A stretch of 44,234 bases of DNA, taken from positions 159,837 through 204,070 of the forward strand of contig JH611157.1 of the NCBI GenBank assembly GCA_000252525.1, read 5' to 3'. Origin of the DNA: SAR86 cluster bacterium SAR86A. GTDB taxonomy: Bacteria; Pseudomonadota; Gammaproteobacteria; Magnimaribacterales; D2472. A program made the translations under genes and the position numbers. This document shows positions 41,394 through 43,885 of this stretch, piece after piece; the first letter of the stretch is position 1; each line of letters starts with the position of its first letter. The notes beneath the pieces were generated by a model that saw nothing but the letters and a program-made list of their open reading frames with translations, had not been told where the DNA came from and did no database searches.

Positions 41394-42239
41394 ATGTCGA
41401 CAAAATTATTGAGACAAATTAAGAATTCGATACCAGATTTAAGAAAGTCGGAAAAAGTAGTCGGAGAGTTTATATTAGAAAATCCTAAATCTGTCATCAC
41501 CATGAAAACAGCAGAAGCATCTGAAGCTATGGGAATAAGTGAACCCACACTTATTAGATTTTGCAAAGCAATAGGATTTTCAGGTTTTCAAGAACTAAAA
41601 ATTAATTTATCTCAGCAATTAGCAGCAGATGATTATTTTGTAATGTATGAAATAGATGAAGATGATTCTATTCATGAGCTCTGTGAGAAAGTTTTCGATA
41701 CCGGCATAAGTGAAATATTAAATGTTCGATCGCAAATTGATCAAGATATCCTTGAAAATGCTATTGAAACCTTGGTGAATGCAAAACGTGTAGAATTTTA
41801 TGCTTTTGGTGGCTCAGCTCCAGTGGCAATGGATGGTCAGCATAAATTTTTTAGATTAAAGATTCCATCATCAAATATATCAGATCCTCATCTTCAGTTT
41901 ATGTCAGCTAACTCTCTTGAAAAAGAAGACGTTGTGGTGGCAATATCACAATCAGGAACTACAACCGCATTAATAGAAAGTGTAAAAATTGTAAGAAAAA
42001 ATGGTGTCAAAGTAATCGGGATAATGCCAGGCGACACTCCACTTGCAAATATCTGTGATTATCCTCTGACAATTAATGTAGGGATCAACAACAGAATATC
42101 AAAACCAGTTACATCTAGGATTGCATATACAGCTGTAATAGATGTGCTAACTATGGGTGTAGCACAACTCAAGCCCGAGGCTCAAGAACATTTATATAAT
42201 ATCGCTGATAGTCAAAGATCTTTGAAAAGTAGTGACTAA
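41394..42239 (+). CDS. MurR/RpiR-family transcriptional regulator, HexR-like
   Basis: A 281-residue regulator with an N-terminal RpiR-type HTH (about 1-78: DLRKSEKVVGEFILENPK, then ISEPTLIRFCKAIGFSGFQELKI) and a C-terminal SIS sugar-phosphate-binding domain (about 125-265, with FYAFGGSAPVA and VVVAISQSGTTTALIESV). The HTH is very close to HexR, which senses 2-keto-3-deoxy-6-phosphogluconate and controls central sugar metabolism in Pseudomonas and Shewanella. None of the usual neighbours (zwf, edd, pyk) is present, so HexR identity is inferred. It overlaps the end of the convergent hydroxylase gene by 4 nt. Confidence 0.85.
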   Translation: MSTKLLRQIKNSIPDLRKSEKVVGEFILENPKSVITMKTAEASEAMGISEPTLIRFCKAIGFSGFQELKINLSQQLAADDYFVMYEIDEDDSIHELCEKVFDTGISEILNVRSQIDQDILENAIETLVNAKRVEFYAFGGSAPVAMDGQHKFFRLKIPSSNISDPHLQFMSANSLEKEDVVVAISQSGTTTALIESVKIVRKNGVKVIGIMPGDTPLANICDYPLTINVGINNRISKPVTSRIAYTAVIDVLTMGVAQLKPEAQEHLYNIADSQRSLKSSD

Positions 42240-42853
42240 TAGATTGCTGATTCCCTAAACCAGAGATTCACTGCCCATTTTTCACCTGCAACAACTGGCG
42301 AACCTCCATGAAGTGCTTGTGGATTAATTTCAGTTGTGCCCTCTATACAATTATGAAAAACAACTACGTCACCTTTATTTGGTTTTACAGAAACATTTAT
42401 TTTTGGAAAATCCGTAGCGCCTCCCTCCTCAACATCATTTAAATAAGCAAGGGCTGTCACCATTCTTTGGCCACCTGGAAACCAATTATTTTGTCCTTCT
42501 TTTGTAGTCTTATCAAAAGCATCAAAATGAGGCTTATATTCATTACCAGGCCCATAATAGACTAGCTGGAATTGTTCAGCATTGTTAATTGGCATCTTAA
42601 CTAAAACAGAAAATCGCTTACTTACTTCATGAATGACATCAGATGCGCTATGTTCCAACCAACAAAAATCATTGGTCCTACTTGCATGAAATTCACTTTC
42701 ATCATCTGAAATTACCTTAGCTCTTTCCATTTTACCCTTACCCATTTCAACAAAAGCTTCACATTCATCATCGGATAAAAAATTATTTACTACATAAACA
42801 ATTGGGTCTGCAGAATAAAGAGTGACGTTATCAGATATTTTTTTTGGTTCCAT
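42236..42853 (-). CDS. Prolyl 4-hydroxylase-like 2-oxoglutarate/Fe(II) oxygenase
   Basis: A 205-residue single-domain P4H-type oxygenase. The iron triad is His109 and Asp111 (YKPHFDAF) with His182 (LHGGSPV), and Lys192 in GEKWAVNLW is the 2-oxoglutarate-binding lysine of collagen-type prolyl hydroxylases. GGQRMVTALAYLNDVEEGGATDFP and GDVVVFHN are standard P4H core strands. It has no signal peptide, so it should work in the cytoplasm. The likely substrate is a protein prolyl residue, but free-amino-acid or other substrates are not excluded. Its start lies 45 nt from that of a divergent GT60-type glycosyltransferase. Confidence 0.9.
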   Translation of the reverse strand: MEPKKISDNVTLYSADPIVYVVNNFLSDDECEAFVEMGKGKMERAKVISDDESEFHASRTNDFCWLEHSASDVIHEVSKRFSVLVKMPINNAEQFQLVYYGPGNEYKPHFDAFDKTTKEGQNNWFPGGQRMVTALAYLNDVEEGGATDFPKINVSVKPNKGDVVVFHNCIEGTTEINPQALHGGSPVVAGEKWAVNLWFRESAIY

Positions 42854-42858
42854 TTGCG

Positions 42859-42882
42859 ATACAAATTATACTATTTTTGTAT
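42859..42882. promoter_or_regulatory. Shared promoter region with dyad between hydroxylase and glycosyltransferase
   Basis: The whole gap between the divergent ATGs is 42854-42898. ATACAAA (42859-42865) and TTTGTAT (42876-42882) form a 7-bp inverted repeat with a 10-nt spacer. The gap carries -10-like boxes for both directions: TATACT on + (42868-42873) and two TATAAT boxes on the minus strand. Co-regulation of the two genes from this short region is plausible. The A+T richness makes each box weak evidence. Confidence 0.4.
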
Positions 42883-42898
42883 TATAAATAAATTTGTT

Positions 42899-43885
42899 AT
42901 GAAAATTTTTATTTCAATTGCTTCCTATCAGGACCCCTTACTTGAGTCCACAATTATAAGTGCATACGAATCATCTAAAAATCCTGAAAACTTAGTATTT
43001 GGTGTATGCGATCAATCAAGCAATCCGCTCGATATTGACAAATTCTCATTCAAGGATCAAATTCATTATGAACATATTGATCCTCTTTTATCTGAGGGTC
43101 CATGTTGGGCTAGAGCAGAAATTCAAAAAAAATTTACAAACGAAGAATATTATTTACAAATTGATTCACACTCTCAATTCGAAGAAGACTGGGATTCATA
43201 CTTAATAAAATACATCAATAAGATACAAGAGGTCGATTCTGAGTTGCATAAAAATCCAATAATTACATGTTATCCAAGAGCTTTTGAGGTTCTTGACTAC
43301 GACAGTCATAAATTTTCAATGAATAGAGATGATAAAAATACACATGTAATTACTTTTAGAGAAGATTCAATGTTTATAAAAGGGAATTTTTGCAGACAGA
43401 TTGGTGCTATTTCAAATGAAGAAATAACACATGGATTCCTGCTAGCTGCCGGATTTATTTTTACAACATCAGACTTTGTAAAGAAAATTCCATACGACCC
43501 AATTTTTTATTTTTATGGTGAAGAAATATCCCTAGTGCTGAGAGCCTTTACCAGAGGCTTTGGGATATTCCATATTCCTGAGGCTCCTCTATTTCACTTA
43601 TATACTGATGTAACAGACATAAAAAGAAAGTTACATTGGGATACTAGCGAAGACGAAGGTAGAGATATTAAATGGCATCAAAGAGAAGAAATAAGCATAG
43701 AGAGATTAAGAAAAGTTATTAATAATGAAATTAATGATGAGTTTGGTCTTGGTGATACAAGATCATTACAAGATTATGAAAATTTATGTGGAGTTGATCT
43801 AAAAAATATGAAGGTTTTAGATAAACAAAAAGCTTATACATCTGAATTTATTTCAAAATTGTCATGGCAGGACTCATCTTTCTAG
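42899..43885 (+). CDS. GT60/PF11397-type glycosyltransferase (Skp1 hydroxyproline GlcNAc-transferase-like)
   Basis: Started at the ATG at 42899, where the family's N-terminal strand begins (MKIFISIASYQDPLLESTI); a TTG frame further upstream runs into the neighbouring promoter and is rejected. The 328-residue product has GPCWARAEIQ (67-76), a DSH metal motif at 89-91 (YLQIDSHSQFEEDWD), GFLLAAGFIFTT, YDPIFYFYGEEI and FHLY. These are the marks of PF11397, which contains Dictyostelium Gnt1, the enzyme that adds GlcNAc to hydroxyproline on Skp1. It is soluble by sequence (no signal peptide or membrane helix). Acceptor and sugar here are unknown. The divergent neighbour is a prolyl hydroxylase-like protein. 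Confidence 0.85.
   Translation: MKIFISIASYQDPLLESTIISAYESSKNPENLVFGVCDQSSNPLDIDKFSFKDQIHYEHIDPLLSEGPCWARAEIQKKFTNEEYYLQIDSHSQFEEDWDSYLIKYINKIQEVDSELHKNPIITCYPRAFEVLDYDSHKFSMNRDDKNTHVITFREDSMFIKGNFCRQIGAISNEEITHGFLLAAGFIFTTSDFVKKIPYDPIFYFYGEEISLVLRAFTRGFGIFHIPEAPLFHLYTDVTDIKRKLHWDTSEDEGRDIKWHQREEISIERLRKVINNEINDEFGLGDTRSLQDYENLCGVDLKNMKVLDKQKAYTSEFISKLSWQDSSF

Follow-up and report, generated by a model that had tools for sequence, protein, structure and literature searches.

A divergent oxygenase and glycosyltransferase pair in SAR86

SAR86 bacteria are abundant in the surface ocean. Towards the right end of a 44,234-nucleotide (nt) stretch of the 1.25-Mb genome of SAR86 cluster bacterium SAR86A (contig JH611157.1, positions 159,837 to 204,070; hereafter 'the window'), an intact prolyl 4-hydroxylase (P4H)-type 2-oxoglutarate (2OG)- and Fe(II)-dependent oxygenase of 205 amino acids (aa), encoded on the minus strand (42236..42853), and an intact PF11397/GT60-type glycosyltransferase (GT) of 328 aa, encoded on the plus strand (42899..43885), start divergently from a common intergenic region. 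A preliminary description of the window had proposed that the two enzymes act one after the other, by parallel with PhyA and Gnt1 of Dictyostelium and Toxoplasma.

The 45-nt spacing given in that description was borne out between the two ATG codons, that of the GT lying at 42899 with the stop at 43885 and an upstream TTG listed at 42854. This head-to-head region (42854..42898), presumed to be a shared promoter, contains a 17-nt block, CAAATTATACTATTTTT, that is identical in all 10 genus members printed. Neither N-terminus appeared to carry a signal peptide, as judged by eye with no prediction program run, and the first strand of the predicted GT structure begins at residue 3.

The P4H scored 61 bits against PF13640 (cut-off 27). 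Its catalytic set, described earlier as a complete HxD...H...K, was found in full and is invariant or nearly so across a 23-row alignment: H109 and D111 of the HxD motif (42521..42529), the distal ligand H182 (42308..42310) and K192 (42278..42280), all on the minus strand, with iron-binding roles for the first three and 2OG binding for the lysine as generally assigned in this family. PDB sequence matches included 3itq, 2jig and 7zsc (E 2.3e-27 or better), and the collagen-type P4Hs of Bacillus anthracis and Chlamydomonas (3itq, 5v7y and 3gze) matched at E 4.6e-34 and 2.3e-32. An AlphaFold2 (AF2) model (pLDDT 92) was nearest in fold to the Chlamydomonas P4H 3gze, solved with (Ser-Pro)5 (TMq 0.86), and then to Bacillus and human collagen P4Hs. 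More distant folds (TMq 0.60–0.67) were those of the Pseudomonas EF-Tu hydroxylase (PPHD), Dictyostelium PhyA and PHD2, and PDB sequence searches reaching E 1 with the single protein and E 10 with a profile gave no PhyA, PHD2 or PPHD chain. By sequence and predicted fold the window P4H belongs to the collagen/Bacillus/algal class, for which peptidyl-proline hydroxylation is the predicted activity, and so the PhyA parallel, taken as kinship, is not supported. A direct relationship to PhyA was rejected on both grounds.

The GT scored 154.8 bits against PF11397 (cut-off 21), in agreement with its earlier assignment, and the D89-S90-H91 motif (43163..43171, plus strand), presumed from its usual role to be a metal/UDP site, is invariant in alignments of 26 and 43 rows. 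PDB sequence searches with the GT gave no relatives. Its AF2 model (pLDDT 95) was nearest to polypeptide GalNAc-transferases, which occupied the first 29 rows of the fold comparison (Z 19.6–23.0; next row, 17.4), and neither the fold comparison nor the GT60 tree placed it with lipopolysaccharide or small-molecule enzymes. Both proteins look like peptide- or protein-acting enzymes in their predicted folds, a likeness that is no proof of the acceptor. NCBIfam held no family for either protein.

GT60 domains were also seen in other combinations, fused to a Ser/Thr protein kinase domain in an Aliarcobacter metagenome-assembled genome (MAG; L231:1702-3711) and followed in frame by a methyltransferase domain at L327:1150-2895.

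Presence and absence of the pair in SAR86

We searched 100 relatives, many of them incomplete genomes, and found the GT in 30 and a P4H match in 41: both genes in 29, the GT only in 1, the P4H only in 12 and neither in 58. The single GT-only genome, G007, has a contig that begins inside the GT. Within the window's genus (34 genomes), 10 had both genes, 23 had neither and G007 was cut by the contig end. A lack of co-occurrence, sought as evidence against a joint role, was not seen.

The gene order at the window's right end is a RpiR-type regulator (HTH_6 and SIS domains by Pfam; 41394..42239, plus strand), the P4H, the GT and a MazG-like gene (PF03819; 43925..44234, plus strand) cut by the window end. 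In the SAR86 family f1, 18/18 readable GT-positive genomes carry the pair head to head at a single position between uvrD and MazG, with the RpiR gene between uvrD and the P4H in 16 of these (absent there in G016 and G039). A search of 30 f1 genomes without the pair located uvrD in 27, and we examined its neighbourhood in 20 of them, including 17 of the genus's 23. RpiR directly adjoined MazG in 18 of the 20 stretches, at a distance of about 24 to 109 nt; one of the remaining two contigs ended too early and the other had no RpiR match there. The f1 pair is a cassette, bordered by RpiR and MazG, that is present or absent whole. The pair in G078 is carried by a contig of 3.5 kb, possibly binned wrongly.

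Beyond the right border, SAR86 genomes differ in the genes that they carry from MazG up to the next conserved gene (L307, L309, L314 and L318). The window's own genome shows an apparent tandem duplication of the 3' portion of the GT and of the MazG gene (L083:7762-8907), which may be real or an assembly effect: the last 112 residues of the GT have a second, 98% identical match downstream, inside a 229-aa MazG-like open reading frame (ORF), and a further MazG gene of 138 aa comes after this ORF.

Linkage and fusion in other bacteria

A scan of genome contigs with a single sequence returned no GT loci; an alignment scan did, and we kept 80 loci, examining up to 6 kb on each side. By similarity, 55 were SAR86-type, 41 of them with a head-to-head P4H (two degenerate), 13 without and 1 truncated. 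Among the 25 others, a P4H lay within the examined stretch in six (L248, L250, L251, L252, L253 and L256). Four of these are cyanobacterial head-to-head pairs (L248, L250, L252 and L256, the last two being near-copies), and in the Polaribacter locus L251 the P4H lies two genes from the GT60, its N-terminus weakly resembling Peptidase_C39 (16 bits against a cut-off of 22).

The sixth, L253, is on a contig that encodes a 1236-aa fusion with the order HPAT-GT60-P4H-(2OG-like), where HPAT denotes the hydroxyproline arabinosyltransferase family (PF23452, 45 bits against a cut-off of 23.9; GT60, 166 bits; P4H, 63 bits). The last domain matches phrog_2954 and is related (E 8e-12, single comparison) to a 272-aa protein that occupies the GT slot beside a retained P4H in the SAR86 genome G034. 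That 272-aa protein is probably a second 2OG oxygenase; for it and for the last domain alike, this label comes from one phage annotation, a Pfam match below the cut-off and a PHROG whose own label is ferrochelatase. The contig that carries the fusion comes from a MAG, measures 10.3 kb and is of uncertain origin, its record title giving 1.3x coverage. Searches with the HPAT profile found 0/398 phylum and 0/199 order genomes, a null result that does not show absence, since no control genome matched either. An O-FucT-family gene (PF10250; L264:4564-5811) adjoins the HPAT-GT60-P4H fusion.

PF11397 was found in 28 of the 398 genomes of the phylum sample. One of these, G527, rated 100% complete, encodes a single 874-aa protein, P4H-GT60-TTL (P0001; L345:490-3114), on a 1.7-Mb contig, and a Thioalkalivibrio plasmid encodes a P4H-TTL fusion without GT60 (L385:5722-7590). 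A P4H fused to a TTL-like domain, with or without GT60 between them, is possibly a hydroxylase-ligase module. Given the co-occurrence and the fusions, the P4H-GT60 association is not a matter of chance.

Phylogeny and selection

The SAR86 P4H-linked GTs formed one clade (support 99) near viral GTs in a GT tree (84 rows, single gene, built by a quick method and rooted at the midpoint), and the other P4H-linked GTs sat across a split (support 98) from them; four changes of the linkage label were needed, two of them forced. On a uvrD tree (47 rows, quick method, single gene, with long-branch warnings), the pair label needed eight changes of state, of which four to five were forced by well-supported branches. 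Most likely, the P4H-GT60 link has been made more than once. Such a recurrent link is hard to explain by shared ancestry of one locus, and is therefore our strongest argument for joint function. The ratio of non-synonymous to synonymous substitution (dN/dS) was 0.02–0.05 for the P4H and 0.08–0.15 for the GT in the four of five pairs for which a dS was obtained, two of these being close to saturation, which points to purifying selection on both genes.

Viral relatives

At least 553 viral stretches encode GT relatives, and 3/50,697 phage records matched the GT by tblastn. We sought P4H-GT60 linkage in phages from both sides; it was not the rule there. In viral loci L386-L465, a second 2OG-like gene, which is related to the G034 GT-slot protein and to the domain that ends the 1236-aa fusion, precedes or follows the P4H in 26/80, not all independent.

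Comparison with known systems

The SAR86 P4H shares sequence family, fold and catalytic residues with the collagen-type P4Hs of Bacillus anthracis and Chlamydomonas, for which we know of no GT60 partner. Pseudomonas PPHD, which acts on EF-Tu, offers a precedent for a bacterial protein prolyl hydroxylase, but its fold is more distant (TMq 0.62–0.67) and it was not among the PDB sequence matches. The GT27 polypeptide GalNAc-transferases, nearest to the SAR86 GT in predicted fold, likewise have a DxH-type motif; identity is only 12–17%, however, and the 328-aa SAR86 GT has no counterpart of the C-terminal lectin domain of GT27 enzymes.

As in Dictyostelium and Toxoplasma, a P4H is coupled physically or genetically to a GT60/PF11397 transferase. 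Many protist PHYa genes are reported to be fused to Gnt1-like regions, and protist relatives lacking catalytic residues are also on record (PMC6437050); Gnt1 activity requires PhyA, and a polypeptide GlcNAc-transferase of Trypanosoma cruzi is another member of GT60 (PMC6939170). The SAR86 P4H differs in being of the collagen/Bacillus class and not the PHD/PhyA class, and no Skp1-like substrate is proposed. The bacterial fusions repeat the protist coupling with a different P4H class, and the likeness to PhyA/Gnt1 is an analogy in the way of working, not in hydroxylase descent. Plant HPATs (GT95) act on hydroxyproline (PMC8012813), and an HPAT domain is joined to GT60 and P4H in one bacterial protein, but HPAT is not found at the SAR86 locus.

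A candidate two-step protein modification

We searched the open-licence PMC literature for the function of bacterial GT60-P4H pairs and found no paper. We judge it only marginally better than an even bet that the P4H and GT60 form a two-step protein-modification cassette, in which a proline is hydroxylated and then glycosylated. With O2, Fe(II) and 2OG, the P4H would hydroxylate a proline within a protein or peptide of the cytoplasm, and the new hydroxyl would then receive a sugar from a nucleotide sugar, perhaps UDP-GlcNAc by analogy, through the GT60-type transferase. This reading is favoured by the linkage of the genes, their joint absence, their recurrent fusion, the intact catalytic motifs and the closeness of both folds to peptide enzymes. 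The coupling of P4H and GT is well supported and the predicted hydroxylation–glycosylation chemistry is plausible; we infer that both enzymes share one proline and that the acceptor is a protein, as we do the sugar and any oxygen-sensing role.

Several observations weigh against it. Although the idea of sequential action gained from the features just listed, it met a difficulty in two SAR86 genomes, G046 and MED-G82, which pair an intact GT with a P4H lacking H109, H182 and K192, three of the four catalytic residues. In that lineage the GT works without its neighbour's hydroxylation or the P4H-like protein serves as a scaffold; with dN/dS of 0.06 for the GT and 0.30 for the degenerate P4H, the latter is possibly a pseudoenzyme partner, and a degenerate P4H beside a conserved GT speaks against obligatory coupling. 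The degenerate P4H is kept as an intact ORF (L223:5397-6032 and L227:379-1014). Twelve of the 41 P4H-positive genomes have no GT, some of these being weak P4H matches; the GT slot in G034 is occupied by another protein; and in family f4, where 10/10 genomes carry both genes, the P4H was beside the GT in 0/10 GT loci read. In the three such f4 loci read, the P4H adjoins uvrD without a GT, and the two f4 P4H sequences aligned have an N-terminal hydrophobic stretch. Adjacent genes can, moreover, be lost together through one deletion.

Outside SAR86, the majority of GT60 loci examined, in bacteria and viruses, have no P4H neighbour. Among 29 loci from 27 of the 28 phylum genomes with PF11397, a P4H lay within about 1.5 kb only in G527, and 99 relatives of the Vulcanococcus genome of L248 gave six GT60 matches in five genomes, half with an adjacent P4H and half without. 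A P4H was found in 2/80 viral GT60 loci, apparently near-copies, a count that is a lower bound, as in L109 a PF13640 oxygenase lying about 1 kb from the GT escaped the A2 profile used; conversely, GT60 was found in 0/80 and 0/73 viral P4H loci. As a hint of Pro-rich substrates, a ([STAP]P)3 codon pattern was sought in the window's own genome; it gave 15 matches (8 + 7) and the reversed control 16 (7 + 9), and none of the proteins matched was convincing. P4H has different partners in different loci, namely GT60, TTL or a second 2OG-like protein, so what these systems share may be the modification of a protein in several steps more than a sugar on hydroxyproline in itself.

The same variety of partners would suit an alternative that we regard as unlikely, though the best placed of its kind, in which the enzymes serve one protein or pathway at different residues, the P4H at one site and the GT on Ser/Thr or another residue, so that hydroxyproline is not the acceptor. 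GT27 enzymes, the nearest folds to the GT, act on Ser/Thr, and the GT is retained where the P4H is degenerate. The T. cruzi enzyme (PMC6939170) is a further point for it; the HPAT domain of one fusion and the protist PHYa-Gnt1 fusions (PMC6437050) point instead to a hydroxyproline acceptor.

Less probable again is a surface or phage-related use, in which the GT decorates an envelope glycan or alters phage sensitivity, and in which the neighbouring P4H is inherited along with it but has a separate role. The grouping of SAR86 GTs with viral GTs, the abundance of viral relatives, the lack of a P4H at most bacterial GT60 loci of the phylum sample, the patchy presence of the pair and the gene-variable stretch just after MazG in several genomes are consistent with it, but joint absence and recurrent fusion argue against it. 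Nor did PADLOC provide a defence match for both genes: it holds no family for the GT, and for the P4H one 2OG model labelled CRISPR-Cas-associated, a model that any P4H would match through its domain.

We think it improbable that the enzymes tailor a small peptide natural product, in the manner of ribosomally synthesized and post-translationally modified peptides, instead of a housekeeping protein. P4H fusion to ATP-grasp/TTL-like domains and the weak Peptidase_C39-like N-terminus in Polaribacter would fit such a pathway, but our maps of ORFs of at least 60 aa show nothing besides the two enzymes between RpiR and MazG (a shorter precursor is possible). That the shared 45-nt region merely holds two unrelated genes together, as their separation in f4 might suggest, is very improbable given the fusions and head-to-head pairs in other bacteria.

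Implications

To our knowledge, hydroxyproline glycosylation is known only from eukaryotes. More broadly than the SAR86 cassette, and more tentatively, with the balance of probability slightly against it, bacteria may run their own O2- and 2OG-dependent hydroxyproline glycosylation of cytoplasmic proteins, assembled independently of PhyA/Gnt1 from a collagen-type P4H and a GT60; some lineages would have added a further enzyme to the single chain, be it an HPAT-like arabinosyltransferase, a TTL-like ligase or a second oxygenase. Our findings suggest that P4H-GT60 coupling does not require a hydroxylase of the PhyA class, and the natural single-chain fusions are ready-made proteins to assay. For SAR86, the cassette is a compact, testable candidate for bacterial hydroxyproline glycosylation, possibly serving as an oxygen readout.

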